The notes below the pieces were generated by a model. That model was not told where the DNA came from and did no database searches. It saw only the letters and a list, made by a program, of their open reading frames with translations. This document shows positions 13,661 to 30,148 of a stretch of 64,000 nucleotides of DNA, one piece after another; the first letter of the stretch is position 1, and every line of letters begins with the position of its first letter. The translations under genes were made by a program, and so were the position numbers. The stretch comes from Saccharomonospora amisosensis (GTDB lineage Bacteria > Actinomycetota > Actinomycetes > Mycobacteriales > Pseudonocardiaceae): assembly GCF_011761185.1 (NCBI RefSeq), contig NZ_JAAOYM010000001.1, positions 806,001 through 870,000 on the forward strand, read 5' to 3'.

Positions 13661-16600
13661 GCCGGGTTCTCCTCGGCGGCAGGGATGAAGTCGTCGGGAG
13701 CCACGGCGAACTTCACATCAAGGTTGGGTCGGAAGGCGCCGAGAAGTGCTTGTGCAGGGTTGTGGATGCGGTAGAGGCGCGGGTCAGCAGAGGCGCAGTC
13801 CAGGACCGCGTAGAGCCAGTAGTCGTCGCCGATCTCTTGGGCTTTGGCGAACTCGCTCCAGCTGAGTGCCACAGCGCCGTATCCCGCTCGCCCTTTGACT
13901 TCAATGCAGCGTCGCTCGTCCTTGGTGGTGGAAAGGAGGTCGAAGCCGATGTTGTCCTTCTCGTAGCTTTCGACCTTGGCTCCTCGACCTTCTTCGTAGT
14001 GCCACGCAACGTTGATCGCGATCTGCTCGATTTCCTCGGTTTCAGTCGCGCCGTCGTGGTAGTCGCTGGCCTCGACGGGCAGCGGCAGCACAAGTGCGCG
14101 CCCGATCAATCGGACGGGGCCGCGGCGAACATCGCGGTTCCGGCCGATCTCGGCGATCCGGTTGTTGCGGCGCTGGAGGTGCTGTTCCTTGTCCAGTTGG
14201 GCTTGCCGGAGGCGGCCTTCGGCGCCCTTGACTCCCTGTTCGACCTCGTCTTCGAGGTCCATCAGGGTGCGTTCGATGTCGGCGATGACTGAGCGGGCAC
14301 TGGCCTCGACGAACCGTTGCTGGATGTCGGCTGCGTGCTGCCGTTCGGCGCGTACCCGCTGGTAGTCGTCCTCGAAGAGGTGTTCACGGCACCAGCGTTC
14401 GAGGTCATCTGCGGTGCCACTGTCGACGGCAGGTGGTTCCTCGGGGGCCGGCTGGTTGTCGTCCGGCACGACCAGGTCGAAGAGACTCGTGTGCGGAGCC
14501 TGTTCCATATGGCCGTCAGCGGTGACTCGGACGGCGTCGAAGCGGCGGTGTGCAATGTTGTTGTCGGAGTCGACCACGTCCCCGGTTACGAAGCACAGAA
14601 CGTGCGGCTTGACCGTGTCCGGGTCGAACACGATCGCTCCACGTTCAAGATCGGAAGCGGTGTCGTGCAGCACTGCCTCCACAGCCGCGTCGAACAAGGG
14701 GTGCCCTGGCCCGCATAGTTCGGGTGGTGGTCCTCCTCCCGTTTCGTCACGGGAGGGCCGCTCGGCAACTTGCCGGTCAAATGTCAACTTCTTGTATGTC
14801 GGGAAGACTTGGCGGGTCGCACCTGCGGCTCGACTGGCAGCCACGAGCCGGTTCGGTGTGCTGATGTTGACCGTGTCGTCGAGTCGTTCCTCGACCTTGC
14901 CATCGAGCCACGTGACGGCATCGGCGAGGAAGCGCTGGAAATAGCCGGGCGGCAGTCGGCGCTCCTGTGCGCGTTGGTACTGCTCTCGTTCGCTTCGCCA
15001 GTCGACGTGCTGCTTGGCGAGGGCTTCCTGCATGAGATCCCGAGCGCGCTGGCGCACCTGCGGGTCCACGACATCGCCGCCGAGACGGTCGACGACGTCT
15101 TCCGCGGACATGTCACCCGAGATCAGAAACTCCATCAGCTCCTGGAGGCGGTATCCCGCGAAAGTGTCGCCGATGACATCAAACACGCCGTCGCCGAGCT
15201 CATGACGCATGGCGTTGATCTTGCGCAGCAGAGTAGCGAGGACCCGTCCTTCCCGTGTGTTGACCGCGACCATGTTGAAGATGTGCACGTCGCGGGTTTG
15301 ACCGATCCGGTGAATGCGGCCCATGCGTTGTTCGAGCCGGTTGGGATTCCATGGGATGTCATAGTTGACCATCAGGTGGCAGAACTGGAGGTTGATGCCT
15401 TCCCCAGCCGCCTCCGTCGCCACCAGGATCTGGGCCTCTTCACGGAACCTGCGTTCCTGCTCGATCCGCTCGGCGAGCTTCATACCACCGTGGATCGTGG
15501 CTACGTCGAAGTCGGCCGAGAGCTTCTCGACGAGGTAGTCCAGGGTGTCGCGGTGCTCGGTAAAGATCACGAGCAGGCGGCTGCGGTCCTCCCACAGTCC
15601 CTCATCACGAACGACGTCGAGTAGCTCGTTGAGCTTCTTTTCTTGACCGGCAGTCTCCGCCGCTTCGGCTTGGTCGAGCAGCGGGAGTAGCGCCTCACGC
15701 TCCTGCCTCAGCTCTTCCACCGTGGCGGGCAGCGCCTCGTCGAGGGCCGCCTGTTCGAGCTGCCAGAGCGCTTCATCGTCGAGGTCGGCAAGCGTCTCGG
15801 GATCGCTCACGAGCTGCTGGCGGAAGTCCTTCCGGTTGCGCAGGTACGCAGCTGGATCGGCCAAGGCCCGGTCGATTCGTTCGATGCGTCGGGAGATGGT
15901 GCGCTTGATGGCCCTGACGCTGGACGCGAGCCGACGTTGCATCGTCGTGAGCGCGAATCCGGCAGTGCGTTGGTCCGCCTCACCACGGATCTCGCGGAGC
16001 CTCGTCTGCACGAATTCGGTGACCGCCTGGTACAGCTCTTTTTCTGCGCCCTCGAGGTCGAACTCGACGGTGGCGGTATTCCGCTCTCGGAAGAGCGGCG
16101 CCCCGTCCATGTCCGTCATTTTCTCTTTCGAGACCTTGCGGTAGTAGCCATCGGGGGCCGGGAGGCTACGGGGACACCGGTCGCCGAACGCATCCCGGTC
16201 CAACAAGCGCAGCAGCCCCCAGAAGCTCTCTGTCTTGCCAGAGTGCGGCGTGGCCGTCATCAACAGGAGCCGCTCGGATGCCGCAGCTACCTGCTCGGCA
16301 GCCTTGTAGCGCAGGCTCCGCTGCTTGATCGTCCCCTTCGTGTCGGTCTGGAGCGTGAACCCGTGGGCTTCGTCGATGACGGCCAGATCCCATGGCCGCC
16401 GAGCTGCGACGAACTGCTCAAGTCGTTCGGGGTTCTTCAGGAAGTCACGTGAGACGATGACGCGGTTGAACCGGTCCCATGGGTTGCCGCGGATGGTGTT
16501 GTCGATCTGTTGAGCGCTGACCTGGTCGAACTCGAAGCCGAAGCGTTCTTCCAGCTCGCGAGCCCACTGCGGTAGAAGGTTGGCGGGAGCCACGATGAGG

Positions 16601-17058
16601 ACGCGGTCGGCGGACCGACGCAGCTCCAGCTCTTTCATGTAGAGGCCAGCCATGATGGTCTTGCCAGCGCCGGGGTCGTCCGCCAGCAAGAACCGCAGGC
16701 GAGGCTGGCGCAAGAACTCGCTGTAAACAGCCTCCAGCTGGTGTGGCAGCGGCTGGATGTTCGACACCGCGAGCGCCGCCATGTCGTGCGTGAAGGCAGT
16801 CTGGATGCGCTTCGCCTCGACACCGAGACGGAATGCGATTGGGTCAGAATCGAACCGTGCTCGATCACTCTCCGTGATGATCTCAAGCAGGGCAGCTTCT
16901 GCCTCCGACAGCGTGATCTCCCCAGGCCCTGCTTCGCCCCGATACACCAGGTGCCAGAACGCCCCTGGACGCACGTCAAGCAGCCGGACGACCTCGCCTG
17001 TATCGGGCAGTCGCACCCGTTGATCACGCACCAGGCGAGTGTCGCCCTCCGAGGTCAC
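13657..17058 (-). CDS. SNF2/DEAD-type helicase with C-terminal DUF3883 nuclease-like domain
   Basis: An 1133-residue protein starting GTG 17058 behind GAGGAGGG. Helicase motifs: LADDPGAGKT (about 125-134), VIDEAH (227-232), MTATPHSGK, and QRMGRIHRIGQ in the second RecA domain. After a coiled segment, the last 120 residues hold FDLLSTTKDERRCIEVKGRA. This is the DUF3883 fold, related to PD-(D/E)xK nucleases with the ExK at EVK. It should move along DNA and perhaps cleave unmodified DNA. It is the first gene of the operon with DUF1156 and DUF499. This composition resembles DISARM-like and haloarchaeal Pbe-like systems, though I cannot fix the exact class. Confidence 0.87.
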   Translation of the reverse strand: MTSEGDTRLVRDQRVRLPDTGEVVRLLDVRPGAFWHLVYRGEAGPGEITLSEAEAALLEIITESDRARFDSDPIAFRLGVEAKRIQTAFTHDMAALAVSNIQPLPHQLEAVYSEFLRQPRLRFLLADDPGAGKTIMAGLYMKELELRRSADRVLIVAPANLLPQWARELEERFGFEFDQVSAQQIDNTIRGNPWDRFNRVIVSRDFLKNPERLEQFVAARRPWDLAVIDEAHGFTLQTDTKGTIKQRSLRYKAAEQVAAASERLLLMTATPHSGKTESFWGLLRLLDRDAFGDRCPRSLPAPDGYYRKVSKEKMTDMDGAPLFRERNTATVEFDLEGAEKELYQAVTEFVQTRLREIRGEADQRTAGFALTTMQRRLASSVRAIKRTISRRIERIDRALADPAAYLRNRKDFRQQLVSDPETLADLDDEALWQLEQAALDEALPATVEELRQEREALLPLLDQAEAAETAGQEKKLNELLDVVRDEGLWEDRSRLLVIFTEHRDTLDYLVEKLSADFDVATIHGGMKLAERIEQERRFREEAQILVATEAAGEGINLQFCHLMVNYDIPWNPNRLEQRMGRIHRIGQTRDVHIFNMVAVNTREGRVLATLLRKINAMRHELGDGVFDVIGDTFAGYRLQELMEFLISGDMSAEDVVDRLGGDVVDPQVRQRARDLMQEALAKQHVDWRSEREQYQRAQERRLPPGYFQRFLADAVTWLDGKVEERLDDTVNISTPNRLVAASRAAGATRQVFPTYKKLTFDRQVAERPSRDETGGGPPPELCGPGHPLFDAAVEAVLHDTASDLERGAIVFDPDTVKPHVLCFVTGDVVDSDNNIAHRRFDAVRVTADGHMEQAPHTSLFDLVVPDDNQPAPEEPPAVDSGTADDLERWCREHLFEDDYQRVRAERQHAADIQQRFVEASARSVIADIERTLMDLEDEVEQGVKGAEGRLRQAQLDKEQHLQRRNNRIAEIGRNRDVRRGPVRLIGRALVLPLPVEASDYHDGATETEEIEQIAINVAWHYEEGRGAKVESYEKDNIGFDLLSTTKDERRCIEVKGRAGYGAVALSWSEFAKAQEIGDDYWLYAVLDCASADPRLYRIHNPAQALLGAFRPNLDVKFAVAPDDFIPAAEENPA

Positions 17059-17644: not shown

Positions 17645-17827
17645 ATGACGGCTGCCGTTTCCCAATCGGCTACCACCGTTGAGGCCGACGAGTCGCTCTT
17701 CACTGTTGTGAGTGTTGCCAGCCGGCTCTCTTCCTTGGCGGACGTGATGGCCGAGATCGACAGCAAACGGGCAGCTGAGGTCATCCGGTTCCGGACGTGC
17801 TGCGCCGATCCACGAGCCAGCAAGTAA
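17645..17827 (+). CDS. Candidate precursor peptide of a ribosomally made, modified peptide
   Basis: A 60-residue peptide with GGGAGGAAC five bases before ATG 17645, a near-ideal ribosome site. The N-terminal part (MTAAVSQSATTVEADESLF) is acidic and leader-like. The middle is hydrophobic and Ser-rich, and the C-terminus is basic with a vicinal cysteine pair (RTCCADPRASK). It lies 64 bases before a PP-loop ATPase and two radical SAM/SPASM genes, enzyme types that often act on peptides. The leader/core boundary is unknown, but Cys-Cys and the Ser-rich segment are possible modification sites. It may instead be a small accessory protein. I recognise no family match. Confidence 0.55.
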   Translation: MTAAVSQSATTVEADESLFTVVSVASRLSSLADVMAEIDSKRAAEVIRFRTCCADPRASK

Positions 17828-17891
17828 ACCTGGAGGGGTCAGCCCGCGACAGCCCTTCCCACCTAGCAAACCACGTGGGAGCCAGAGCCAG

Positions 17892-19121
17892 GTGTTAAGC
17901 CTTCTCGACCGCCGCGGCGGACTTCACAGACTTCTCCACCACGACGGCGACTCCGTCGCGCAGGTACTATTGCGACATGGCATTCCGCCTACTTCCGTAG
18001 TTGTCTACCGGGACGCAGACCAAACGCCGGTGACCGACGACTCAGTGGTTTCCAGCGATACCGACTATACGGCTCGCCTGATCGAAGGCTACGACATCGA
18101 AGGCATACGTCGTCTTTACGACGGTGAACTATCGACTGCTGGTGGACAGCTATCGGCCTGTCAAGGTTTGCTGAAGCGTCGCCTAGCGGTCGCGCCCGAT
18201 GGCAAGCTATCTATGGAGCGAGCCCATCTCGACAATTCAGCTGGTGCTCTTCATGTCGAAGAGACTGTTGTTGACACCGTCGAACGGTTCAGCCTTCTCC
18301 CGGAGGGAAGCACGGTAGTCCTCGGCCTCTCCGGCGGTGTGGATAGTGGCTCCTTGCTCATGCTGCTCAGCTCCTACCGCCGGCGCCACCCGTCGATGAA
18401 CATCCGAATCCAGGCTGCAACGTTTGAGGATTTCGACAGCAGGTACTCGGAGACGTTCAGCTTCGCCTCTCGCCTGGCCAAGCGGTTCGACATCGAACAC
18501 ACCTTGGTCGAGGCCGACAAAGCCGAGCGCGTGTTCAATCTCACCCGCCCCGTCGAGCAGATCCTGCTGTTGTTGATGGAGTCGGATGATGCGCACCAAG
18601 CGATGTATGTCGATCATCACACGACACGTCGGGTCCTCGAGGTGTTTGCCGACGAGGTTGGCAGTGACACCGTTGCGCTCGGTCTGCACACCACCGATCT
18701 GCTTGCCGGGCTGTTGAACAGCTGGACAAGCGGCTACGACATCGGTCCGATCCCGGAACGGCAGATCGGCATCTACCGATACGTCCTGCCGCTGGCTTTC
18801 GTGCCGAAGCGGGAGCTACATCTCTACTACGCTGACCAACTTGGACACCTGCCCAAGCAGACCACCCCAAACCAGTGGGAGTTTAATCCCACCGATCGGA
18901 ACTTCTATTACTATCTGGCGGACCACTTGCAATGGTTGTGGCCCGGCCTACAGCACTGGGCTTTTACCGCGCACAACGCGCAAGCCAGTGAAACAGTTAC
19001 GTTCGAAACCTGCGAGAACTGCGGTGCTGCCGCTCGTGAGCAGCCAAATTCGCCCGCTTGGTCTGGTCTGTGCGACGTATGCACACTGTTCGACAAGCAC
19101 GGCTGGTTGCGCATGTCTTGA
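17892..19121 (+). CDS. PP-loop ATP pyrophosphatase with ThiS/MoaD-like N-terminus and zinc-finger C-terminus
   Basis: A 409-residue protein starting GTG 17892. Residues about 18-70 (SVAQVLLRHGIPP, VVVYRD, TPVTDD, ending LIEGYDI) look like a beta-grasp sulfur-carrier domain. The PP-loop LGLSGGVDSGSLL (about 144-156) binds and splits ATP to activate a carbonyl, as in TtuA/TtcA tRNA thiolases and asparagine-synthetase-like enzymes. The C-terminus carries two Cys pairs (CENCG and CDVC) that probably bind zinc. A role in inserting sulfur or nitrogen into the cluster's substrate is inferred. The fused carrier-like domain is unusual, and no separate sulfur-carrier gene is present. Confidence 0.75.
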   Translation: MLSLLDRRGGLHRLLHHDGDSVAQVLLRHGIPPTSVVVYRDADQTPVTDDSVVSSDTDYTARLIEGYDIEGIRRLYDGELSTAGGQLSACQGLLKRRLAVAPDGKLSMERAHLDNSAGALHVEETVVDTVERFSLLPEGSTVVLGLSGGVDSGSLLMLLSSYRRRHPSMNIRIQAATFEDFDSRYSETFSFASRLAKRFDIEHTLVEADKAERVFNLTRPVEQILLLLMESDDAHQAMYVDHHTTRRVLEVFADEVGSDTVALGLHTTDLLAGLLNSWTSGYDIGPIPERQIGIYRYVLPLAFVPKRELHLYYADQLGHLPKQTTPNQWEFNPTDRNFYYYLADHLQWLWPGLQHWAFTAHNAQASETVTFETCENCGAAAREQPNSPAWSGLCDVCTLFDKHGWLRMS

Positions 19122-19153
19122 CCGCCACCACGAACAATGATCAGGGAGACACG

Positions 19154-20647
19154 ATGACAACCGTGGGGCCGCAAGAGAATACCGAGCGCCGTCTGTTGCC
19201 GATTTTTCCAGCGGGAGAAATGGACGCGCTACAAGCCGGCCCCGTCGTGGACGGGCACCAAACCTACCAAGTGAACGACCACGAGACACTCTTCAGCAAC
19301 GAGGAGCTGATTGAGCCGCTCCAACCCTATCCGGGCGCCGTACTGCCAAAGATTGCTGGACGCAAAGCTTACCCGATCCCGGACAGGGTCGGTAAGTATG
19401 GTACCTGGTCGGAGTTCAAAAAGGCTCCGAAGTTTATGGCGCAGTGGGTCCACTGGAAAACCCGTACTGACCTCATTCTTGAGGGCCGCTATCACGACGT
19501 GCCTCCAGCTCATTACGAAGGCATCTTTACGCTGGTGTGTAATTTTATGTGCCCACATTGCAGCCGGCGGGTTACTCGCACCAAGTGGGTTGAGGGCGGT
19601 ACTTGGGACCACAACACACCCATCGAGAAGAAAAACACGATGCACCCAGACGGCCTACGCCGGGTCATCGATCAATTGGCCGCCAATATGGTCGACGATC
19701 AGATGGGGATCATCTGGGGCGGTGGAGACCCGACCGCCAACCCGTACACCTACACAGCGATGGCGTACGCCCGCGAGCGAGGCATCACGTCAAGCTTCCT
19801 CACCAACGGTGTGCACCTCGATGTCGACAACTGCCTCGCGACAGACCCTATTCTCGTCCGGATCAGCCTTAACTGCGGCACCGAAGAGGCATACCGGAAG
19901 TTCCACGGCTATCCGCGTGGGCGCGACGACTTCGACCGTGTACGGCAAAACATGCGTGACCTGGCGCGCCGGAAGCTAGAACTCGGTGCCAGGACGTTGG
20001 TGGGAATCTCGCTGATCGTCGACGAGCGCAACATGGACGACATCGTGGAGGCGGCCAAGGAAGTCCGGGCTGTCGTCGACGACGCCGGACCCGGCATCGA
20101 CTATGTCATCGCCCGGCCGGTCATGAACTACAAGCACTTCGATCACGAGTGGGCGCGTCTTAAAGACGATACCAAACAACGCGGCATGGACCTCGTCAAC
20201 GAAGGAGGTGAAGCCTGGCAGATCTTCCATGACCTGGGCATTCCGCTCGTGTTGATTAAGGACTCGTTCGACGAGCCACCGCCACCGGAGTCTTACGAGG
20301 GGTCCGAGTGTCTGGCTTATGGCCTCTATGGCGAGATCCGACACAACGGCGATGTGCAGCTGTGCTCTGATTCCTACGGAAACCCTAAGTACACCATAGG
20401 AAACCTGTTCGACAACGACTTGGACGAAATCTTGACCTCGGAACGCCGCCGGAAGGTGCTGGCCGAAATCAACGAGTCCAAGTGCTTCCAGACAACGTGC
20501 CCGCACAACTCCCGTGGCCATCACCACAATCGAATCTTCCACCAGATCGAGTCATTCCGCCGAGCCGGCCGGATGAATGAGGTACGCCAATGGGTCGACG
20601 ACCTCCGCGAAGTGACCTATCCCCTCGGCCATTCCTTCTTCGTGTAG
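19154..20647 (+). CDS. Radical SAM/SPASM protein, first tandem copy
   Basis: A 497-residue protein with CNFMCPHC at residues 129-136, the CxxxCxxC that holds the catalytic 4Fe-4S cluster and S-adenosylmethionine. GGGDPTANP is the adenosylmethionine-contacting Gly-rich motif. The C-terminal part (ECLAYGLYGEIRHNGDVQLC, then CFQTTCPHNSRGHHHNRIF) is a SPASM/twitch region for auxiliary Fe-S clusters. Such enzymes modify peptides by radical chemistry, making C-C, C-S or C-N links or epimers. Its 110-residue N-terminal extension is not seen in the second copy and could be a recognition domain. It lies 32 bases after the PP-loop gene. Confidence 0.9.
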   Translation: MTTVGPQENTERRLLPIFPAGEMDALQAGPVVDGHQTYQVNDHETLFSNEELIEPLQPYPGAVLPKIAGRKAYPIPDRVGKYGTWSEFKKAPKFMAQWVHWKTRTDLILEGRYHDVPPAHYEGIFTLVCNFMCPHCSRRVTRTKWVEGGTWDHNTPIEKKNTMHPDGLRRVIDQLAANMVDDQMGIIWGGGDPTANPYTYTAMAYARERGITSSFLTNGVHLDVDNCLATDPILVRISLNCGTEEAYRKFHGYPRGRDDFDRVRQNMRDLARRKLELGARTLVGISLIVDERNMDDIVEAAKEVRAVVDDAGPGIDYVIARPVMNYKHFDHEWARLKDDTKQRGMDLVNEGGEAWQIFHDLGIPLVLIKDSFDEPPPPESYEGSECLAYGLYGEIRHNGDVQLCSDSYGNPKYTIGNLFDNDLDEILTSERRRKVLAEINESKCFQTTCPHNSRGHHHNRIFHQIESFRRAGRMNEVRQWVDDLREVTYPLGHSFFV

Positions 20648-20657
20648 GGCCGGGTTG

Positions 20658-21959
20658 GTGTCGGTGACCCCAGCGGATCTGTCGATGTCCGAACGGTGGC
20701 CGCTGCCCGAGCAGGTCGGTCGCTGGGGCAGTGCTGCCGAGTTCAGCAGCCAGCGAGCAGAGGCGGGCCAATGGGTGTTCTGGCAGGATCGATTCGATCT
20801 GGTCTTGGCCGGCCGCTACCACGAGGTCGTTCCGCTGCACGTCGAGCTCAGCCCGACGTTCCTCTGCAACTTCGCCTGCCCATGGTGCAGCTGTCGCAGC
20901 GCTCGTGAAGAGTGGTCCGAGGACGACGTATTCCGGCATCCACGCTCGACCCCGCTCACCGTAATGCGAATGCCCCGGCTGGAGCGGGTCGTAGACCACC
21001 TTGCCGACCACGGTGTCGAGGTGATGTGGGTCGGTGGCGAGCCGACCATGAACCCGCTGCTCTACCCTGCGGCCGCGCGTGCTCACGAGCGCGGTGTTAA
21101 CCAGTGCTTGTTCACCAACGGCAGCCTGTTCCGGCCTGATCAGGCCGCGTCCCTGTTTGATTCCGACTTGGTGTTCATCCGGGTCAGTCTCAACGCCGTC
21201 ACGCCGGAGGTACACCAGCGGCACCACGATTACGACCCCCGCCGCCCGCACTGGCAGCGCGTGCTGGACAACCTGGCGCTTCTCGCCGAACTGCGCGCCG
21301 AGGAGCGATCCCGGACGCTGGTCGGCGTATCCATCGTGGTTGACCGCAACAACGCGGACGACATCCTGCCTACGGCACGCTTCCTCAGTGGCTTGTGTAC
21401 AGGCGAACGGGACGGGCGCATCGACTACGTGATCATGAGACCTGCCTTCCCAATCGTCGGCGCACAAGTTGATGTCGACCGTGCAACCGTGGACGCGTTC
21501 CTGCGCGAGGCGGCCCCCGGCTCCGAGACCCGTCGGCTTCTTGCCGATGCGGGGATCGAGGTGGTCGTCCCAGATGCCTCGGTGGGCGTGGTCGACGCCA
21601 TGCCGGATGACGACCTCGGTTGCCTGGCCGCGGGCTGGTTTGGCGAGGTCACTCCATCCGGCGACATGCTGCCATGTTCCGACCTGTACGGAGATCCCGG
21701 CTTCTACATCGGCAACATCGCCAACGACTCGCTGACCGACATCTGGGCAAGCGACAGGAGGCGCGCGGTGCTCGGAGAGGTACGCCGAGGGCGGTGCCCT
21801 TCCACCCGATGCCCGGAAAATGGCCGCGGGCACCATCTCAACCGGGCCTTCCGTCAAGTCGAGACCTTCCGCCGCAGTGACCGACTTAACGAGGTCGCGC
21901 GCTGGGCAGAGGACCTTCGGCGCGTCCTGCCTGTGCCCGAGCATTCGTTCTTCCTCTGA
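20658..21959 (+). CDS. Radical SAM/SPASM protein, second tandem copy
   Basis: About 433 residues from GTG 20658; TTG 20655 and a downstream ATG near 20685 are alternatives. CNFACPWC (residues 70-77) is the CxxxCxxC radical motif, and WVGGEPTMNP the Gly-rich one. The C-terminal SPASM-like part has CLAAGWFGEVTPSGDMLPC and CPSTRCPENGRGHHLNRAF. The ending (TFRR, NEVARWAEDLR, EHSFFL) closely parallels the first copy (SFRR, NEVRQWVDDLR, GHSFFV), so the two arose by duplication. The radical cysteines are intact in both. They may act in sequence on one substrate or at two positions. Intergenic distance is only 10 bases. Confidence 0.9.
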   Translation: MSVTPADLSMSERWPLPEQVGRWGSAAEFSSQRAEAGQWVFWQDRFDLVLAGRYHEVVPLHVELSPTFLCNFACPWCSCRSAREEWSEDDVFRHPRSTPLTVMRMPRLERVVDHLADHGVEVMWVGGEPTMNPLLYPAAARAHERGVNQCLFTNGSLFRPDQAASLFDSDLVFIRVSLNAVTPEVHQRHHDYDPRRPHWQRVLDNLALLAELRAEERSRTLVGVSIVVDRNNADDILPTARFLSGLCTGERDGRIDYVIMRPAFPIVGAQVDVDRATVDAFLREAAPGSETRRLLADAGIEVVVPDASVGVVDAMPDDDLGCLAAGWFGEVTPSGDMLPCSDLYGDPGFYIGNIANDSLTDIWASDRRRAVLGEVRRGRCPSTRCPENGRGHHLNRAFRQVETFRRSDRLNEVARWAEDLRRVLPVPEHSFFL

Positions 21960-21970
21960 AACGGATCGTC

Positions 21971-23182
21971 ATGACGGGAGAACGATCTGTGATGTCAGAA
22001 CTTGAGCCGGCGATGAGTGATCTTGAGTTGCTCAGGTGGATACGCCGGACCATGCACCAATGGCCTGAGTTGGGTCATGAGGAACACCGAACGTCAGCCT
22101 TCCTAGAAGGTGTCCTCGGTGGGTTCGGCCTTCGATTCTCCCGGCCCGCACCGACCAGCCTGGCCGTCAGCCTCGGACCACGTGGCCGCCCAACCGTCGC
22201 ATTCAGGGCTGACCTGGACGCCATCGCTCGTACCGAGGAGACAGAGCTGCCCTTTGCGTCAGAGCGACCCGGTGTCATGCATGCCTGCGGACACGACGGG
22301 CACACGGCGGCGTTAGTCGTTCTGGCTCGCCGACTGGCGCGCCGCCAGCCAATCGACCCAGTGCTCCTGATCTTCCAACAGGCCGAGGAAGTCCATCCCA
22401 GCGGTGCCCGCCGGGTGATCGAGGGGCTTGGACCAGGCACCTGGCCAGCCGATCAGATGTATGGCCTGCACCTGTGGCCCGAACTCCCGGAAGACACTAT
22501 CGGCCTTAGGACGGGTGCTCTCATGCCTGGCATCTCGGGCGTCACGGCTACCTTCCGAGCTGTCCAAGGCCGCTCGCACGGGACGCGGGTCGATGCTGGG
22601 GCAGGCGATGCGCTGAACGCGGTGAACCGCTTCTGCAGCATGGTCGAGCGAGTGGTACCTGCCGGACGATGTCCGACCTCCGAGCGGCCAGTCGTGGTCC
22701 ATGTCGGTATGGCGCAGGCTGGCGAGGCGCCCAACCAGCCGGCTTCCAGCGGATCGGTGAGGGCGACAATGAGATGGCTCGATCACGACGCTCGCGTCCG
22801 TTGCGAGAAAGACCTGCGTCAGATTGCGGAGGATGTCACCGCCGAAACCGGCGTCGCGGTAAACGTCTGTGTCGAGAACGACGTCCGCCCCCTGGTCCCC
22901 AATGCGGCATCGGCGGTGAACAATGTGGCCAGCGCGTGCGAGAAGGTGGGGCTCAATGTGGCAGCCAACTACCCGCAAGCGCCGCTCGGCGTCAGCGACG
23001 ACTTCGGCTGCTATTTGGAACATGTGCCAGGCGCGCTGTTTCTGGTCGGCTGCGGGACGGGTAATGATCAAGCCGACCTCCACGACCCGAAGTTCGACTT
23101 CCGTGAGGAGGCACTGCTGCCGGTGGTGGATGTCCTGGAACTGCTTGCACGGCAGGATTTCGGCTCGGTGGTCAACCCATGA
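21971..23182 (+). CDS. M20-family amidohydrolase (N-acyl-amino-acid or peptide deacylase)
   Basis: A 403-residue metallo-amidohydrolase of full length. RADLDAI (about residue 78), HACGHDGHTA (about 98) and QQAEEV (about 137) carry the usual His/Asp/Glu metal ligands and catalytic Glu of the M20D subfamily. This family includes hippurate and N-acyl-amino-acid hydrolases. In this cluster it could remove an N-acyl group or cut the modified residue from a peptide. ATG 21971 is given; ATG 21992 behind GGGAG is a reasonable alternative. It lies 11 bases after the radical SAM pair, and its stop overlaps the next start. Confidence 0.88.
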   Translation: MTGERSVMSELEPAMSDLELLRWIRRTMHQWPELGHEEHRTSAFLEGVLGGFGLRFSRPAPTSLAVSLGPRGRPTVAFRADLDAIARTEETELPFASERPGVMHACGHDGHTAALVVLARRLARRQPIDPVLLIFQQAEEVHPSGARRVIEGLGPGTWPADQMYGLHLWPELPEDTIGLRTGALMPGISGVTATFRAVQGRSHGTRVDAGAGDALNAVNRFCSMVERVVPAGRCPTSERPVVVHVGMAQAGEAPNQPASSGSVRATMRWLDHDARVRCEKDLRQIAEDVTAETGVAVNVCVENDVRPLVPNAASAVNNVASACEKVGLNVAANYPQAPLGVSDDFGCYLEHVPGALFLVGCGTGNDQADLHDPKFDFREEALLPVVDVLELLARQDFGSVVNP

Positions 23183-24048
23183 CTGGCGACCAGTCGAACA
23201 CTCTGGTCATCTCCGCTGAGGCCGTCGAGGCCATCGAGAAGATCTGGACAGATCAACGGATCGACGACGCCCAACTCCGCGAGCCGGATATCCAGGAGGG
23301 GCTGCGTCAGCGGTGGGCCACCCATCTCGGAACCACCTGGTCAGAGCTAGTGAAGAACATTCGCGGCACCATACGTGCGCAGCTGTGGGTCGTTGTCCGC
23401 TCACCTATCGGCCGCCCGAGCCCAGCATTGTTGGCGGCGCTCGGAACTGCCGTTGGCTGGTTGGCCGATCCCTACCGCGCTTCCTGGTCACGTGTGTTGC
23501 AGGAGATCCCCCACAAGCCCGAGTGGACGCCAGATCTGGAGTGGCATACCGACAGCACCGGCTGGCCTCAGCCCAACGACGTCACGGCGTTGACTTGTCT
23601 GAAGCCCGCAGTGACCGGCGGCGCAACCGATCTCCTGACGCTCGACACCGTCCAGCGCACGGCGATCGACGAGGCCACCCTGACCACCTTGGCGGGTGCG
23701 GACTTCGCGTGGCCGCTCGACGCCGAGCTCGGTGGCGGCCACGCGAGCGACGTGATTATCACCCCGCAGCGAATCCGATTCATGCGTGCGGCGCTGCTGA
23801 ACGCCACGGACGACCGCATTCGAGAATCTGCGCGTCGGTTCGCGGATCTCATCGACCGACTGGCACCGGACCAGTCCGCCGTTCTCGATCCTGGCGACAG
23901 CCTGCTGTTCGACAACGCTCGTTGCCTACATCGACGAGGCGAGCTTTCCGACCCCGATCGCCGGCGTCTCCTGCTCAGGACGAAGATTTTCTGGCAGCTA
24001 CCAGACAGGCTGGACGGTCAGGCACGCCACCGCGCCATCACGTCGTAA
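23179..24048 (+). CDS. TauD/TfdA-like Fe(II)/2-oxoglutarate-dependent oxygenase
   Basis: A 289-residue protein. WHTDSTGW (about residue 121) supplies the HxD iron ligands. NARCLHRRGE (about 254) supplies the distal His, and RRLLLRTKI the Arg that binds 2-oxoglutarate. Such enzymes hydroxylate, desaturate or cyclise amino-acid-like substrates using O2 and 2-oxoglutarate. It overlaps the amidohydrolase stop by four bases and ends in a 31-base tail-to-tail overlap with the aldo/keto reductase. It is the last plus-strand gene of the cluster and probably a tailoring step. Confidence 0.85.
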   Translation: MTGDQSNTLVISAEAVEAIEKIWTDQRIDDAQLREPDIQEGLRQRWATHLGTTWSELVKNIRGTIRAQLWVVVRSPIGRPSPALLAALGTAVGWLADPYRASWSRVLQEIPHKPEWTPDLEWHTDSTGWPQPNDVTALTCLKPAVTGGATDLLTLDTVQRTAIDEATLTTLAGADFAWPLDAELGGGHASDVIITPQRIRFMRAALLNATDDRIRESARRFADLIDRLAPDQSAVLDPGDSLLFDNARCLHRRGELSDPDRRRLLLRTKIFWQLPDRLDGQARHRAITS

Positions 24049-25025
24049 GTCTTGCCGGCTTTCGCCGGGTCGCGGTCAACAATGTCACCAAGAGTCTCGT
24101 CGATCTTGCGCATCACTTCGAGGTCAAGCACAACCTCGGCAGCCGCGGCAGTCTCCCGGAGCTGGCTGGAGTTTGACGCACCGACAACGGCTGCTGCGAC
24201 TCCAGGCTGTTGGAGGACCCATGCCACGCCCAGTTGCGCCAGGGTCACGCCAAGCGAGTCGGCGATCGGTCGAAGTCGCTGTACCCGCTCTAGTACGTCG
24301 TTGGACAGGCACCGGGTAATCGAGGAGGCACGAACTGCCGTGGCGCGAGACCGCTCGGGCCATGGCACCCGAGGCAAGTACTTGCCCGTGAGCACACCTT
24401 GGGCAAGCGGTGAGAAAGCGACCTGCGTCATTCCGAGCTCTGTACTCGCCGGTATCACCGCTGGCTCAATAACTCTCCACAACATGGAATATTGCGCCTG
24501 ATTGGACACCAGGCCGATCCCCAAGCTCTCGGCAATCGCCTGGCCCGCGCGCAACTGGCTGGCCGTCCACTCTGAGACACCGACATGCCGGACGTCTCCT
24601 CGCCGGACAAGCTCCGCCAATGCTCCAATCGTCTCCTCTAACGGCGTCTCGTCGTCGAAGCGGTGCGCCTGGTACAGATCGATGTAGTCGGTGCGCAGGC
24701 GTCGCAGGGAGCGATGGCAGCTCGTAAGCACGTGCTGGCGCGAGAGATCCTTGTCATGACCTGGCCGACCGGGACGAAGCCCCACCTTGGTCGAGACGAC
24801 CACGGAATCGCGACGAACAGCGGACAGTGCCGTGCCGAGAATCTCCTCGGCACGGCCGTCCGCATAGATATCGGCCGTGTCGAACATGGTGATGCCGACA
24901 TCGAGCGCCGTTGCGATGCATTCCGCAGCAGTCGAGGCATCGGCGTAACCCCCATGGGTTAGCCAGTTGCCGTAAGCAATGGCGCTGACCCTCAGGTCGT
25001 GGATGCCGACCGAGCGGTACTGCAC
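24018..25025 (-). CDS. Aldo/keto reductase
   Basis: A 335-residue (beta/alpha)8 oxidoreductase starting GTG 25025. FDTADIYADGRAEEILG holds the catalytic Asp and Tyr, VVVSTKVGL the Lys, and YIDLYQAHRFD the His of the AKR tetrad. GASNSSQLRETAAA near the C-terminus is the NADPH-binding end. This is the Kv-beta/YghZ-like branch, which reduces aldehydes or ketones. It is three bases from the seryl-tRNA synthetase stop codon side and shares its strand, so the two form one unit. A place in the neighbouring biosynthesis is likely but not proven. Confidence 0.88.
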   Translation of the reverse strand: MQYRSVGIHDLRVSAIAYGNWLTHGGYADASTAAECIATALDVGITMFDTADIYADGRAEEILGTALSAVRRDSVVVSTKVGLRPGRPGHDKDLSRQHVLTSCHRSLRRLRTDYIDLYQAHRFDDETPLEETIGALAELVRRGDVRHVGVSEWTASQLRAGQAIAESLGIGLVSNQAQYSMLWRVIEPAVIPASTELGMTQVAFSPLAQGVLTGKYLPRVPWPERSRATAVRASSITRCLSNDVLERVQRLRPIADSLGVTLAQLGVAWVLQQPGVAAAVVGASNSSQLRETAAAAEVVLDLEVMRKIDETLGDIVDRDPAKAGKTYDVMARWRA

Positions 25026-25027
25026 TG

Positions 25028-26317
25028 TTACGAGCGGGGCGCCCGCTCGTCGCGTGTCAGTGTGTCCTTACCGACGTAGGGCACAAGCACGTCAGGTACG
25101 CGCACGGTGCCGTCTGGTTGCAGCCCGTGCTCCAGGATCGCCGACCACACCCGTGGCGTGGCTATAGCGGAGCCGTTCAGCGTGTTCACCGGCGCAGTCC
25201 CACCTTCGGGCCGCCGGTAGCGGATGCCGCCACGGCGAGCCTGGAAGTCCGTGAAGTTGCCGACGGACGAGCACTCCAGCCACTTGTCCAGCCCCGGCGC
25301 GTATACCTCAAGGTCATAGATCCGGGCCGAGGAGAAGGTCAAGTCACCGGTGCACAGGTCCACCACCCTGTACGGCAGCTCCAACAACTGGAGCGCGCGC
25401 TCGCAGTCCGCCAGCAACTCGAAGAACTGGTCCTCCACCTCGTCCGGGTGACACAGCTGCACCAACTCCACCTTGTGGAACTCGTGCAACCGCTGCATCC
25501 CTCGAGTGTCCTTGCCGGCACTGCCCGCCTCGCGCCGGAAGCATGCGGTGTAGGTCATGTACCGCTTAGGGAGGTCCTCCACGCTAAGGATCTCGTCCCG
25601 ATGCAGCCCGGTCAGCGGCAACTCGCCGGTCGGCACCGCCCAGAGGTCATCCAGCGTCGTGTTGTACATATCGTCGGCGAACTTCGGCAGGTGCCCGGTG
25701 GCCATCGGCGTTTCCCGCCGCACGAAATGCGGCACGACGAGCTCCAGGTACCGGTCGCGGTGCAGGTCCAACGCGAACTGCACCAGCGCGCGCAGCAGTC
25801 GTGACCCGTCCCCGTACAGTACTGGGAACCCTGACCCGCTCAGCTTGGCCGCGCGCTTGAGATCAAGCAGCCCCAGCTCGTCGGCGATCTCCCAATGCGG
25901 TCGGGTATCCGTGCGCTGGCTGGCCTCTGGACCCTCGTACCGGAGGATGACGTTGTCTTCTTCCTCCAGCCCGACCGGCACGGCCGGATGAGGCAGGTTG
26001 GGCAACTGGTACAGCAGCTCGTCAGCCGTCTCGATGGCTTTGCGAAGTTGCTCCTCTAGGTCCGCGATGTCCGTCTTGAGCTCGGCGAGCGCTGCCCGCT
26101 CCTCGTCGACGTTCGCGGCATTCTGGGCCATCAGACGACCGAAGTCCTTAGAGCGCCGATTCATCTCGGCACGCTTCGTGTCCAGCTTCGCGTTGATCGC
26201 TCGCCGGTCAAGCACCGCGTCACGAGCACTCAGCACCAGAGATCGATCAACCTTCTTGCCAGCAAGACGCTCAGCGACCGAATCCGTGTGGTTCAGCAGC
26301 AAGTCTAGGTCGATCAA
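25028..26317 (-). CDS. serS: Seryl-tRNA synthetase
   Basis: A 429-residue class II aminoacyl-tRNA synthetase. The first 100 residues form the long coiled-coil arm that grips tRNA-Ser. Motif 2 is FRREAGSAGKDTRGMQR, and motif 3 includes LECSSVGNFTDFQ, with SARIYDLEVYAPG before it. TTG 26317 was chosen because CAGGAGGAG lies three bases upstream and it fits the family N-terminus IDLDLLLNHTD. A longer reading to 26407 would add 30 unlikely residues. Next to a reductase and a putative cluster, it may be a second copy giving resistance or supplying seryl-tRNA, rather than the housekeeping enzyme. Confidence 0.93.
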   Translation of the reverse strand: MIDLDLLLNHTDSVAERLAGKKVDRSLVLSARDAVLDRRAINAKLDTKRAEMNRRSKDFGRLMAQNAANVDEERAALAELKTDIADLEEQLRKAIETADELLYQLPNLPHPAVPVGLEEEDNVILRYEGPEASQRTDTRPHWEIADELGLLDLKRAAKLSGSGFPVLYGDGSRLLRALVQFALDLHRDRYLELVVPHFVRRETPMATGHLPKFADDMYNTTLDDLWAVPTGELPLTGLHRDEILSVEDLPKRYMTYTACFRREAGSAGKDTRGMQRLHEFHKVELVQLCHPDEVEDQFFELLADCERALQLLELPYRVVDLCTGDLTFSSARIYDLEVYAPGLDKWLECSSVGNFTDFQARRGGIRYRRPEGGTAPVNTLNGSAIATPRVWSAILEHGLQPDGTVRVPDVLVPYVGKDTLTRDERAPRS

Positions 26318-26845
26318 GATCTCCTCCTGCGTAAGTGCCGGAGCTCCGGCTGCGGGTACTGATGATCCCCGCCCAACCCATGAAACAGCCATCACCCTGC
26401 GTGACAACCTGCCGCCGGGAAGTCACCAGGCTATGCTTCGTATCACTTTAGATTTTGCCATGTGCCCGCACGGGGCTCCTGGCGGGATACCTGTTCAGCC
26501 GGTTCACCGCAGGACATGGGCCTGCACGTCGGTTGATCGAGGGATGACGGTCGGCATTACTGGCCAAGATGGGACCATGGCGTCCTGGCTCGTGGGCTTT
26601 GAAACGCGGCTGCGCACCCCACGGGTGCGCGTCGGCCTACTGGGGCCCCTGATGACGCTGACCAGGCAAAACAGGCAGCAGCGAGACTGAAGACCTCGCC
26701 TCAGAATGCCTCCCGCGAGCACGCGGGCCTCACTCCTGATCATGGATATGGGACTCCGAGCCGGAAGCATTGCACTGCACTGGTTGCGCGTCGTGTCCAA
26801 CCATCGTGGAACGGGTCATGGGCGGTTGAAGGTTACTGGTTGTAG
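26318..26845. other. Intergenic region with a perfect 8-bp hairpin
   Basis: No gene with convincing ribosome site and codon use is seen. GCGCACCC at 26612-26619 pairs with GGGTGCGC at 26623-26630 around a three-base loop. This could be a terminator or operator. The region should also hold the promoter of the seryl-tRNA synthetase/reductase unit and the 3' end of the prepilin peptidase transcript. Confidence 0.4.
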
Positions 26846-27547
26846 CTACACGATGGTACCGGTGAGCAGAGCTACGAAGGCTCCTGCGATCAGAAATGGG
26901 CCGACCCGCAGCGACGTATCGCGCGGGAGTCGGCCGGCAGCGCGCAGGATCAGCTGGGCAACCGCGGCGAGGCCCCACCCGAACAGCGTTCCGGTGAGCA
27001 ACGTGCTCCAGCCAGCCGAGCACAACGCGAACCCCAGCAGGCCGCCCAACTTGACGTCTCCACCACCGAGCTGACCTGGGAAGAGAGCGTAGAGCGTGCC
27101 GTAGAACGCCAGAATGATCAGCATGCCAGTGAGTGCGCGTACCACCATCGCAGGGGTTTGATTGACAAACGTGCTCACCACGGCGGTGCTGGCAACGCCG
27201 ATATAGGCAGTGAGCATGAGCCAGTTCGGGAGCTTGCCTGTGCGAGCATCGATAACTGCCAGTGGAACAGCCGTGACCGTGAGTGCGCTCACAACGAAGA
27301 GTTCTGGTTGCCCATCCCATCGCAACGCGAGCAGCGGAAACAAGCTGGTCGTAAGAGCGAGTTGGGTGATCGTTTGCCACATCGGTAGGCACGACTCGTT
27401 ACGCCACGTAGCCAGCCAGGTGAGCGCGCTCGCGAGCGCGCCGACTATCGCCCATGTGGCGGGTGCGGAGATTGCTGTAATGATGATCTCCCCCGAACGG
27501 CGTAGTTGGTCCGACACGTCTCGTAGCGAGTCCGTTTGCGTGTCCAA
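26846..27547 (-). CDS. Prepilin peptidase, A24 family (TadV-like)
   Basis: About 233 residues with six or more hydrophobic helices. VIDARTGKLPNWL and GGGDVKLGGL carry the two catalytic aspartates of type IV prepilin peptidases, membrane aspartic proteases that cut the leader from Flp prepilins. The N-terminal methylase cysteines of PilD are absent, as in TadV. The TTG at 27547 is uncertain, and an internal GTG near 27517 is possible. It is read away from the pilus genes, which start 190 bases to the right, and should process the pilin encoded at 34204-34395. Confidence 0.85.
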   Translation of the reverse strand: MDTQTDSLRDVSDQLRRSGEIIITAISAPATWAIVGALASALTWLATWRNESCLPMWQTITQLALTTSLFPLLALRWDGQPELFVVSALTVTAVPLAVIDARTGKLPNWLMLTAYIGVASTAVVSTFVNQTPAMVVRALTGMLIILAFYGTLYALFPGQLGGGDVKLGGLLGFALCSAGWSTLLTGTLFGWGLAAVAQLILRAAGRLPRDTSLRVGPFLIAGAFVALLTGTIV

Positions 27548-27690
27548 ACGCTAGGGGCGGCTGGTCCACCAGGGCCACTTGGCCGTCTGTCGCTAGGCCA
27601 AACGGGTGAATTTCTGGTGCCGAAACGCTCCAGTTGTGGATTTGTGCCCAGGTCTCGTTGATGTGACCTGGGGGACCAGAGGTACACGTG

Positions 27691-27729
27691 GTCAGGTGCT
27701 TCGATCAAGTGACGAGAGGAACACCTGAC
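27691..27729 (+). promoter_or_regulatory. Inverted repeat just before the lipoprotein gene
   Basis: GTCAGGTG at 27691-27698 and CACCTGAC at 27722-27729 are perfect inverted arms 23 bases apart, ending 10 bases before the start codon at 27740. It could be an operator or an mRNA leader hairpin controlling the pilus operon. No -35/-10 pair was assigned with confidence. Confidence 0.35.
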
Positions 27730-27739
27730 TGGGGGTCGC

Positions 27740-28339
27740 ATGCATGCGCTGATGAGCCCAGCAAATCTACGGCGCTGGGGCGCTCTGTCTGGTCTGGTAA
27801 TCGTTTGCCTTGCGGGGACGCTGGCGTGCGAGTCGGGGGACTCGGGTGCGCCGGCCTCGAAGGCCAGCAATGCGCCGAGCGCTGACGCTTCACCGCCGGC
27901 ACCGTCGCCGACGAAGTCACCTGCCGAAGTGGCAGGCCAGCAGGCGACCGAGGCATACGTCGGCATGTGGCAGGCGATGGCCCGTGCGGGCGAGACATCG
28001 AACTGGCAGGCGCCTGAGCTAGCGCAGTATGCGACCGGTAACGCTCTGACCACGATCACGCGCAGCTTGTACGCCGATCACTTCAACCATGTGGTGAGTC
28101 GAGGCAGGCCCAAGAACAACCCCACGGTGTCCGCGGTAGATCCGCCGAATAACCCGAGCACAGTCCGGATCAATGACTGCGGGGACTCGACGAACTGGTT
28201 GCAGTACAAGGAAGGAACGAACGAGCCCGTTGATAACTCGCCTGGCGGGCGACGTTCCATCGTGGCGGAGGTGAAGAAGCAGGCGGACGGGAGCTGGAAG
28301 GTTGATCGGTTCGCGGTGGAAGGACTCGGGTCATGCTGA
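27740..28339 (+). CDS. Secreted lipoprotein of the Tad locus
   Basis: A 199-residue protein. A hydrophobic signal (LSGLVIVCLAGTLAC) ends in a lipobox-like LACES, so the cysteine near residue 30 should be lipidated. A Ser/Pro/Ala linker follows, then a domain with YVGMWQAMARAGETSNW, common in actinobacterial secreted proteins of unknown role. The C-terminus has VDRFAVEGLGSC. It overlaps the next secreted protein by seven bases. The position at the head of the pilus genes suggests an envelope role in pilus assembly. Confidence 0.7.
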   Translation: MHALMSPANLRRWGALSGLVIVCLAGTLACESGDSGAPASKASNAPSADASPPAPSPTKSPAEVAGQQATEAYVGMWQAMARAGETSNWQAPELAQYATGNALTTITRSLYADHFNHVVSRGRPKNNPTVSAVDPPNNPSTVRINDCGDSTNWLQYKEGTNEPVDNSPGGRRSIVAEVKKQADGSWKVDRFAVEGLGSC

Positions 28340-29340
28340 GGCGAACGATCATCACAACCGGTGCGGTGTCCACCATGCTTCTCCTCGGTGCAACCCCAGC
28401 GTTCGCGGGTGATCCGTGGGGCGGTGTCGATTGTGATCAGGTGCCCTACGCTGGATGCGATTTGGGCGCCGGACAAGGTCGCCAACCTGGGCAGCCTTCG
28501 CGACCGCAGCAACCGGGCTCTGGCCAGGAAGACGACGGCGATCCCTCGACCCCGAGGCCGCAGGGCGACCAGATTGTGGGGGACCCGAACCTGGCCAACT
28601 GCGGCTATGTACGAAGCGACTACCGGCCACCGAGCCAGGGCACAGTGACAATTGGCTACCACCCGCCTCGCAGCGGCGGCGCGGTCACGGTGACGCCCGC
28701 TCTCTACCGGGCGACTACGGCGCCGGCGATAGCGCGACCCGTGCAGCAGCAGCCACCGCCTGGGCAGCCGGGGGCTTGGTACGTGTATCAGTGTTCCGGT
28801 GAGGGGTGGCGGGATGCGCTTTACCGACCGCCGATCTGGATTCCTGACGGGCAGGCTGCGGCTCCCTCGCCGGAGCAGTTGGCGCAGCAGGCGTACAACC
28901 AGTTGCGACTACCGTCGCCTCAGATTCGTGCGAACCCCGTGGGGACGCAGTTGGTCAACCTTCCGACCTGGCTATGGCTGGATCAGTCCAGTTGGGGCCC
29001 GCGGTCGGCCACCGCGTCAGTTCCGGGGGTGTCGGTGACTGCCACGGCAACGCCCCAGTCGGTGACCTGGTCGATGGGTGACGGTTCCACCGTGACGTGC
29101 CCCGGGGCGGGAACTCCGTTCCCGACGGGTGGCAATCCGTCGGCGGCCTCGCCCGATTGCGGCCACACCTACACGCGCTCCTCGCAAGGCCAACCCAATA
29201 ACCAGTTTCCAGTCTCGGCCACAATCCACTGGACGGTGACTTGGGCCGGAGCCGGCCAGGGCGGGACGTTCCCGAGCCTGACCACGACGTCGAGCGCGTC
29301 GTTCGCAGTAGCGGAATCGCAGGCAGTGAACACGAACTAA
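28333..29340 (+). CDS. Secreted Pro-rich protein of the Tad locus
   Basis: A 335-residue protein with a classical signal peptide (TMLLLGATPAFA|GDP). After it comes a Gln/Pro/Gly-rich stretch, then a region with WYVYQCSGEGWRDALYRPPIW and a C-terminal beta-like domain with VSVTATATPQSVTWSMGDG and CGHTYTRSSQG. The last resembles PKD-type folds. Homologous secreted proteins are usual in actinomycete Tad loci; I do not know their function. It is followed by 109 bases before the SAF-domain gene. Confidence 0.7.
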   Translation: MLRRTIITTGAVSTMLLLGATPAFAGDPWGGVDCDQVPYAGCDLGAGQGRQPGQPSRPQQPGSGQEDDGDPSTPRPQGDQIVGDPNLANCGYVRSDYRPPSQGTVTIGYHPPRSGGAVTVTPALYRATTAPAIARPVQQQPPPGQPGAWYVYQCSGEGWRDALYRPPIWIPDGQAAAPSPEQLAQQAYNQLRLPSPQIRANPVGTQLVNLPTWLWLDQSSWGPRSATASVPGVSVTATATPQSVTWSMGDGSTVTCPGAGTPFPTGGNPSAASPDCGHTYTRSSQGQPNNQFPVSATIHWTVTWAGAGQGGTFPSLTTTSSASFAVAESQAVNTN

Positions 29341-29449
29341 GCCCGATTCCCGTGCTGTAGAGCCAAAAAACGAATTCGATCAAGCGAGCGCCCCGCATTT
29401 CCAAGCGAGAGTGGGGTGCGAGGTACTCCCTTGCCTGGAGGTCGCTGCC

Positions 29450-30148
29450 ATGCCCACACCAGTGTCCACTCAGGAGCCTGCCCAGGGGCCGCCGACGCCG
29501 TCGCGGTCGTGGGCGGGGCGTAAGCCCGGTGCGCCTACGCGGTTCACCGGCAGCGGACGTCGCCGGCGTGTGCCATATCTCGTGATCGGGTTGCTGCTGG
29601 TCGTCATGTGCGCGGCGGGCGCGGTCCTGACCGTGATGCAAGTGGGCAACCGTGAGCCGATGCTTGCACTGACACGTCCGGTCAGCGTGGGGCACATTCT
29701 CACCGCGCAGGACCTTCGGCAGGTCCCACTGTCGGCCGATTCCGGCGCGGACGTCATTCCCGCTAGCCAAGCCCAAGCGGTGCTCGGGCAGCCTGTGGCG
29801 TACTCCCTTCCCAGCGGCGCGCTGCTGTCGCGCTCGGCGCTGGGCCAGCCCCAGGTTCCTCCCGCTGGGCAGGGTGTGGTCGCGGTCGGAGTGAAACCGG
29901 GTCAATTCCCACCCGAGATTGCCCCTGGAACCACAGTGTCGGTGATCGTGGTGCCCAACAGCAGCACCGGCGCCGGTCAAACGGCATCGGGCGGTCCGTG
30001 GTCGGCAGTGGTGACCAGTGTGTCCGCGCAGGCCAACGATCAGTCCACTGTGGTCTCCCTCCAATTGCCGACCACCAGCGCGCGTCAAGTCGCGGCGATC
30101 CCACCTGGCCAGCTTTCGCTGGTGGCTGTCCCCGCGGGAGGCCAGTAA
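29450..30148 (+). CDS. SAF-domain CpaB/RcpC-like pilus assembly protein
   Basis: A 232-residue protein; ATG 29450 has GGAG ten bases upstream. One membrane helix (VPYLVIGLLLVVMCAAGAVLTV, near residue 45) is followed by a SAF domain (LTRPVSVGHILTAQDLRQV, then ALLSRSAL) of the CpaB type. These periplasmic or envelope proteins guide Flp pilus export. Gram-positive versions sit outside the membrane. Its stop overlaps the next start (TAATG). Confidence 0.8.
   Translation: MPTPVSTQEPAQGPPTPSRSWAGRKPGAPTRFTGSGRRRRVPYLVIGLLLVVMCAAGAVLTVMQVGNREPMLALTRPVSVGHILTAQDLRQVPLSADSGADVIPASQAQAVLGQPVAYSLPSGALLSRSALGQPQVPPAGQGVVAVGVKPGQFPPEIAPGTTVSVIVVPNSSTGAGQTASGGPWSAVVTSVSAQANDQSTVVSLQLPTTSARQVAAIPPGQLSLVAVPAGGQ

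Follow-up and report, generated by a model that had tools for sequence, protein, structure and literature searches.

A candidate ribosomal peptide gene cluster with a dedicated, divergent seryl-tRNA synthetase in Saccharomonospora amisosensis

Within the 5.53 Mb genome of the actinobacterium Saccharomonospora amisosensis, a stretch of 64,000 nucleotides (contig NZ_JAAOYM010000001.1, positions 806,001–870,000; hereafter the window) contains all the genes of a compact cluster. They encode a 60-residue peptide, a PP-loop ATP pyrophosphatase, two radical S-adenosylmethionine (SAM) enzymes with SPASM domains (rSAM1 and rSAM2), an M20 amidohydrolase, a TauD-type oxygenase, an aldo/keto reductase (AKR) and a seryl-tRNA synthetase (SerRS). 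We propose, with a probability of roughly 0.55, that the cluster makes a ribosomally synthesized and post-translationally modified peptide (RiPP) which inhibits SerRS, the divergent second SerRS being the immunity gene. An earlier interpretation made from the DNA letters alone (the sequence-only reading) had proposed a peptide altered by radical chemistry and by insertion of sulfur or nitrogen. It is partly supported, and what it overlooked, the divergent and dedicated SerRS, is the best clue to function.

A scan of 84,980 species with rSAM1, sensitive to close relatives only, gave four loci: a Pseudonocardiaceae metagenome-assembled genome (MAG; L025), an Actinomycetota MAG (L026), the cyanobacterium Hormoscilla, a sponge-associated genus (L027), and a Kutzneria MAG whose contig is cut inside rSAM1 (L028). 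Together with the window and L038 (genome G046), the rSAM-type cluster is seen in six genomes.

The peptide gene lies at 17645–17827 on the + strand, with GGGAGG ahead of its ATG. Residues 1–47 form the leader, and the open reading frame (ORF) ends in the 13 residues RFRTCCADPRASK (DNA 17786–17824). In L025, L026 and L027 the PP-loop gene is likewise preceded by a small ORF, and its C-terminus is identical at 13 of 13 positions. Hence all four loci of this cluster type that cover the place, the window included, carry the leader-like peptide which the sequence-only reading had placed beside the enzymes, and none lacks it. The core codons differ from those of the window at 9 (L025), 5 (L026) and 10 (L027) of 13 positions without any residue difference, and the leaders have diverged (right-aligned identity 10/37, 9/40 and 8/44, respectively). 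Core divergence that is synonymous only, across two phyla, argues for selection on the peptide and thus for a precursor. Judged from these sequences, it is nearly certain that the 60-residue ORF encodes a RiPP precursor whose leader varies and whose last 13 residues are strictly conserved; a small gene conserved beside modifying enzymes (4/4 loci), variable in its leader and constrained in its core, is what is generally expected of such precursors. A back-translated search with the last 12 residues matched the window once, against no match in 100 shuffles. The precursor matched no family in Pfam and NCBIfam scans, the core pattern had 0 matches in viral_contigs, and a search of plasmids with the peptide at E 1 returned none. 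The core string is likewise absent from the literature searched, which lacks most subscription journals.

The SerRS gene (25028–26407, − strand; translation probably begins some 30 codons into the longest ORF) is linked to the cluster in 5/5 loci whose contig reaches it, namely the window, L025, L027, L028 and L038 (C-terminus only); the contig of L026 ends before SerRS could be reached. Its position varies, being between rSAM1 and rSAM2 in L027 and at the far end on the opposite strand in the window. Retention despite such rearrangement indicates that SerRS belongs with the cluster, of which it is, on the sequence comparisons, almost certainly a dedicated member. The earlier picture of a reductase and SerRS facing the operon from the opposite strand holds, whereas their standing as bystanders does not, both being cluster members.

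Two SerRS copies, 38–39% identical, are present in the window genome, the cluster one and that at G000:C2. The cyanobacterium and the Kutzneria MAG also have two each, the L025 genome has three, one of them very divergent, and G046 has two partial copies; no SerRS was found in the L026 genome, probably owing to incomplete assembly. By comparison, each of five genomes whose PP-loop locus has no rSAM pair in the fetched stretch contains a single copy. Among 298 genomes of the order, the best non-self match to the cluster SerRS is 42–43% identical, and no further SerRS of the cluster type was seen. For the detailed comparisons, four cluster copies were of adequate length. In a tree of 57 sequences (L059 dropped as too short, L037 retained despite its long branch) these four, three actinobacterial and one cyanobacterial, form one clade with full support (100) in the Shimodaira–Hasegawa-like approximate likelihood-ratio test (SH-aLRT). 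The clade is placed beside cyanobacterial housekeeping enzymes, with a support of only 88 for the placement.

All four cluster copies carry changes at positions that stay constant in 52 or more of the other 53 SerRS (52/52 at position 357, with one gap), among them R377L, S383G, Y376W, G357T and W369Y. The E that all four share at position 309 also occurs in 7/53 others and so provides no signature. The cluster copies retain R291 and E293 of motif 2, R419 of motif 3 and the tRNA-binding domain. From this pattern we infer an active synthetase with altered active-site surroundings. A precedent is AbmK (SerRS2) of the albomycin cluster, a divergent, in-cluster SerRS described in the accessible text of PMC9032320 as resistant in vitro and as conferring immunity. 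The window shows two features of such self-resistance, a second SerRS within the cluster and its divergence from the housekeeping copy with the catalytic motifs retained. Taken together, the divergent second SerRS and the albomycin precedent suggest an immunity function, and the product may accordingly be a SerRS inhibitor.

The other genes are linked to the peptide to different degrees. Among loci covering the respective place, the PP-loop gene and rSAM1 occur in 4/4 and rSAM2 in 5/5. The gene order is peptide, PP-loop, rSAM1, SerRS, rSAM2 in L027, and peptide, PP-loop, rSAM1, SerRS in L025. AKR is found in the window, L026 and L028, with a distant relative in L027 and a distant match over part of the protein in L038. 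The window and L028 have TauD, with distant relatives in L027 and, at 30% identity, in L038, and M20 is present in the window, L028 and L038. In the L027 assembly the rSAM1 tail is frame-shifted (11374–11466) and a PhyH-type oxygenase gene is possibly split (14107–14937), through assembly error or decay. The Hormoscilla genome paper, in its accessible text, mentions two RiPP clusters without products and does not contain the term 'seryl-tRNA'.

The cluster is rare. At E 1e-15, rSAM1 relatives occur in 2/396 genomes of the phylum and 3/100 of the family, the window included. The PP-loop enzyme has a strong match in 2/396 phylum genomes, and 19 match at E 1e-3. At E 1e-20 a profile of the PP-loop family found 6/345 class genomes and 1/194 genomes sampled from the cyanobacterial phylum; at E 1e-25 it found 13/229 genomes in the G182 family. 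These counts include own or query genomes.

The PP-loop enzyme (17892–19121, +), of the TtuA/NcsA/TilS-like kind with a C-terminal CxxC...CxxC, has the SGGxDS PP-loop in 8/8 sequences. Its family profile matched NcsA best (Protein Data Bank, PDB, 6scy; E 3e-15), and also TtuA. Profile positions 6–61 match the small PDB chain 1ryj (E 0.005), which we take to be ubiquitin-like. The predicted model, poor at a mean predicted local distance difference test score (pLDDT) of 44.7, has the order strand-strand-helix-strand-strand-strand in this N-terminal region; its Foldseek list, at template modelling (TM) scores of about 0.25, supports the family call at most. A beta-grasp domain is thus probably fused to the N-terminus of the PP-loop enzyme. 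No Cys of the family profile aligns with the central cysteines of NcsA, the ligands of its iron-sulfur ([4Fe-4S]) cluster. We therefore rejected sulfur insertion, one of the two chemistries proposed earlier, and expect adenylation rather than sulfur transfer. Over 125 residues the enzyme matches Asn_synthase at 27.5 bits (cut-off 21). Six PP-loop enzymes and five peptides were compared with NCBIfam, and none passed a cut-off. Among the literature matches listed, judged by title and the opening of the abstract, none describes a RiPP cluster with a PP-loop enzyme or a SerRS, and no paper in the literature searched combines 'PP-loop' with both RiPP terms.

The paralogues rSAM1 (19154–20647, +; CNFMCPHC at residues 129–136) and rSAM2 (20655–21959, +; CNFACPWC) are 40% identical over rSAM1 residues 70–497, and the CxxxCxxC motif and four SPASM-region cysteines are kept in 8/8 aligned sequences. 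The rSAM1 model (pLDDT 60.3) had DesII as its top Foldseek match, followed by BlsE, SkfB and SuiB; DesII and BlsE act on small molecules. For rSAM2 the best NCBIfam match was DynA, with 52 bits where the cut-off is 450. An rSAM/SPASM enzyme and core cysteines, as in sactipeptides and ranthipeptides, are both present, but no named maturase model was reached. Crosslinking of the peptide by the rSAM enzymes is likely but not certain.

The remaining genes are the M20 amidohydrolase or carboxypeptidase-like enzyme (21971–23182, +; CGHDGH motif), the TauD-type 2-oxoglutarate-dependent oxygenase (23179–24048, +; HTD motif) and the AKR, assigned by family match (24018–25025, −). The M20 and TauD genes share four bases, and TauD and AKR are convergent with overlapping ends. 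The tight packing, the ribosome site before the peptide and all gene families named in the sequence-only reading were recovered in the ORF, Pfam and NCBIfam analysis. Its proviso that the enzymes should not match a characterised non-peptide pathway also stands, as among the cluster enzymes of the window SerRS alone passes an NCBIfam equivalog cut-off; M20 passes a general amidohydrolase subfamily model.

The following steps could connect these genes. The PP-loop enzyme would recognise the leader together with an FRT motif and adenylate a carbonyl or carboxylate group in the core, and a core nucleophile would attack the adenylate; Cys is the first guess because the core is rich in it. The two rSAM enzymes could form bonds at unactivated carbons, TauD would hydroxylate and the reductase would reduce a carbonyl. 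Trimming would fall to the M20 enzyme or to a peptidase of the host, the final K or R being the one position at which the five cores of this kind differ. The product, or a fragment released from it in the target cell, would inhibit SerRS, and the divergent second SerRS would keep the producer's tRNA-Ser charged.

Several observations weigh against this proposal. The chemistry assigned to the PP-loop enzyme rests on remote homology and a poor model. None of the eight cluster genes of the window is an exporter or transporter, and the flanks of the relatives had no systematic transporter search. In L027, M20 was unmatched within 21 kb, where the PhyH-type gene is found instead, and the TauD and AKR there are only 28% and 27% identical to those of the window. 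A further locus, L050 (genome G959), encodes the same core with a final R, yet 19 kb of sequence there lack an rSAM pair and its genome has a single SerRS, so that the core alone does not require immunity.

AbmK bears on the proposal in a second way, as it also supplies seryl-adenylate, while VlmL performs seryl transfer in valanimycin biosynthesis (both from the accessible text of PMC9032320). This leaves room for a SerRS that provides seryl-adenylate or seryl-tRNA for attachment to the modified peptide, possibly in addition to immunity. The retained catalytic motifs and tRNA-binding domain would suit such a role, as would the occurrence of the SerRS with the rSAM pair and not at every PP-loop locus, which is how a pathway step would behave. 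Yet the window cluster proteins matched no transferase family using aminoacyl-tRNA at E 0.001 (Pfam, NCBIfam), and the residues altered in the cluster SerRS are almost invariant elsewhere. Immunity and biosynthesis are the two leading readings and both may hold; a biosynthetic role as the explanation is unlikely, though to be taken seriously.

Less probable still, the peptide would be cut down to a cofactor or a small redox-active compound in the manner of pyrroloquinoline quinone (PQQ) or mycofactocin, which would act inside the cell with SerRS as an incidental neighbour. The near-absolute conservation of the core across phyla, the missing exporter and the hydrolase, oxygenase and reductase of the operon would fit, but the rarity of rSAM1 relatives would not, and we know of no part played by a second SerRS in either pathway. 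We consider it very improbable that the cluster serves in phage defence or conflict together with the adjoining defence genes. An HmaA-like helicase, a DUF1156 methylase and a DUF499 ATPase do lie directly upstream and the rSAM enzymes match viperin models weakly; however, the prokaryotic viperin model reaches 37.6 bits against a cut-off of 180, the left flank of L025 holds genes for a helix-turn-helix protein, an amidotransferase and GlnE, and the four flanking genes scanned at L027 contained no defence family. That the small ORF is a chance frame, as its size and lack of family matches might suggest, is refuted by the synonymous-only divergence of its core over two phyla.

The proposed RiPP with SerRS immunity can be set beside known systems. 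To our knowledge, albomycin biosynthesis involves neither a precursor peptide nor a PP-loop enzyme of this type. The albomycin cluster shares with the window a radical SAM enzyme and a divergent second SerRS, with SerRS as the target (presumed in the window), but its product, in the accessible text of PMC9032320, is a thionucleoside siderophore conjugate. The tRNA sulfurtransferases TtuA and NcsA share the PP-loop core and the C-terminal paired CxxC. TtuA uses a separate carrier, TtuB (PDB title), whereas the window enzyme carries its beta-grasp-like domain fused at the N-terminus, has no NcsA-type cysteines and is encoded beside a peptide gene. PesC-type enzymes are defined by an asparagine synthase domain with a glutaminase domain, and no glutaminase domain was matched in the Pfam scan of the window cluster proteins. 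PesC of the nitrilobacillins is likewise an asparagine synthetase-like, ATP-dependent enzyme that works on the C-terminus of a RiPP precursor, accompanied by a hydroxylation step; according to the accessible part of PMC13060819 it differs in using Gln and in a cluster with a multinuclear non-heme iron-dependent oxidative enzyme (MNIO) and HExxH enzymes, and the window enzyme is nearest to the NcsA and TtuA structures. Microcin C-type peptidyl-nucleotides also deliver an attack on an aminoacyl-tRNA synthetase by a peptide, as hypothesised here. They differ, as far as the available source text goes, in their ThiF-like adenylyltransferase, in peptides of mostly 7 residues and in the target, aspartyl-tRNA synthetase; no window cluster protein matched ThiF at E 0.001 (Pfam, NCBIfam). 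The rSAM/SPASM RiPP maturases DynA, SkfB and SuiB share the SAM motif and SPASM domain with the window enzymes, with the differences in score and in top structural matches given above.

PP-loop enzymes of this family also occur beside other peptides. Out of 24 PP-loop loci examined (L105 of Paenarthrobacter was left out), a candidate peptide was found in 21 and none was recognised at L047, L116 and L117. By C-terminus, subtype A (RFRTCCADPRAS[KR]) comprises the window, L025, L026, L027 and L050, the final residue being the sole variable position among the five cores. Subtype B (KFRTTCTDCVPN[FY]) is found in five actinobacteria, subtype C (RFRTCATDPITSW) on the Geobacillus plasmid pGS18, subtype D (...[TC]G[AG]SCETGAQ) on a Pantoea plasmid and in two actinobacteria, subtype E (...CCNS[IV]IA[TF]G) at three loci, subtype F (...LCASALTAQV or the related ...LACSALTAHF) at three loci, and subtype G (...DICGGSTRVVSG) on a Xenorhabdus plasmid. 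These relatives beside conserved Cys-containing peptides apparently represent an undescribed RiPP family. The link between peptide and enzyme is weaker for the single-member subtypes, and at L049 almost 6 kb separate the peptide from the PP-loop gene. A Cys is present within the last ten residues of 21/21 peptides, in a sample biased towards this result: eight (L048, L109–L115) came from a script requiring Cys in the last 18 residues and L049 from a Cys-containing pattern, the remaining twelve from annotation, position or the FRT motif. The idea of a nucleophile kept at constant spacing from the C-terminus (Cys or Thr at −9) was examined and not upheld, as its position varies over the 21 peptides. 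A search of phages with the Geobacillus PP-loop enzyme at E 1e-6 gave no match.

L050 combines core A with a PP-loop enzyme 49% identical to that of the window and with neighbours of subtype B, namely a phosphodiesterase, an aminotransferase, an M28/DUF4910 peptidase and a FemAB-like protein. Related GNAT/FemAB-like proteins are encoded at L030:4428–5480, L049:10462–11544 (subtype B) and L050:13715–14755 (Pfam scans covered L030 and L050); folds of this type can use aminoacyl-tRNA. Clp-like or AAA proteins, perhaps for leader processing, recur beside PP-loop and peptide genes of different subtypes (L120:10121–11899, L039:12778–14052, L040:10339–11232).

In both actinobacterial loci of subtype D a full enolase gene lies about 200 bases upstream of the peptide gene (L120:5521–6921, L122:5415–6809). 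The two enolases are 85% identical, with 4yws as the best PDB match, and could possibly be second copies of a target, a second hint of duplicated-target resistance. Counting against a general rule, the Pantoea locus of the same subtype contains no enolase in the 16.7 kb fetched. That locus (L041:5264–14852) encodes a stand-alone phosphoenolpyruvate-binding domain protein, an aminotransferase, a phosphodiesterase and a nucleotidyltransferase; the gene list of Pantoea PNP-1, in the part available, is unrelated to it. The fused beta-grasp/PP-loop family is seen in four phyla (Actinomycetota, Cyanobacteria, Bacillota and Pseudomonadota). Tentatively, and with rather more doubt than confidence, we suggest that this enzyme defines a new RiPP family whose Cys-containing C-termini inhibit central enzymes and whose clusters carry a spare target, SerRS or enolase.

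To the right, the cluster is delimited by its nearest relative, the Kutzneria MAG, whose similarity (87% of DNA over 6.3 kb) stops at window position 26833; there we set the edge. Beyond it, 26846–32399 holds genes for a prepilin peptidase (A24) and a type II/IV secretion ATPase, probably of a Tad-like pilus. Immediately to the left, the three defence genes named above form an Hma-type trio (8094–17058, −), its helicase being of the SNF2/NOV kind. Beside the Kutzneria copy, a small and a long ORF (L029:139–2282) resemble, by eye, a lasso peptide precursor and its cyclase.

Natural SerRS inhibitors are few, albomycin being one (accessible text of PMC9032320), and a ribosomally encoded one, if the proposal is true, could be varied through its gene. 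The conserved core gives mass spectrometry 13 residues to seek, and the putative resistance gene points to an assay. With the enolase beside subtype D, resistance-guided reasoning could be put to a second test. Several further undescribed products could come from the wider family, along with a PP-loop enzyme presumed to act on peptides, which, if true, would be a previously unseen mode of activating a ribosomal peptide.

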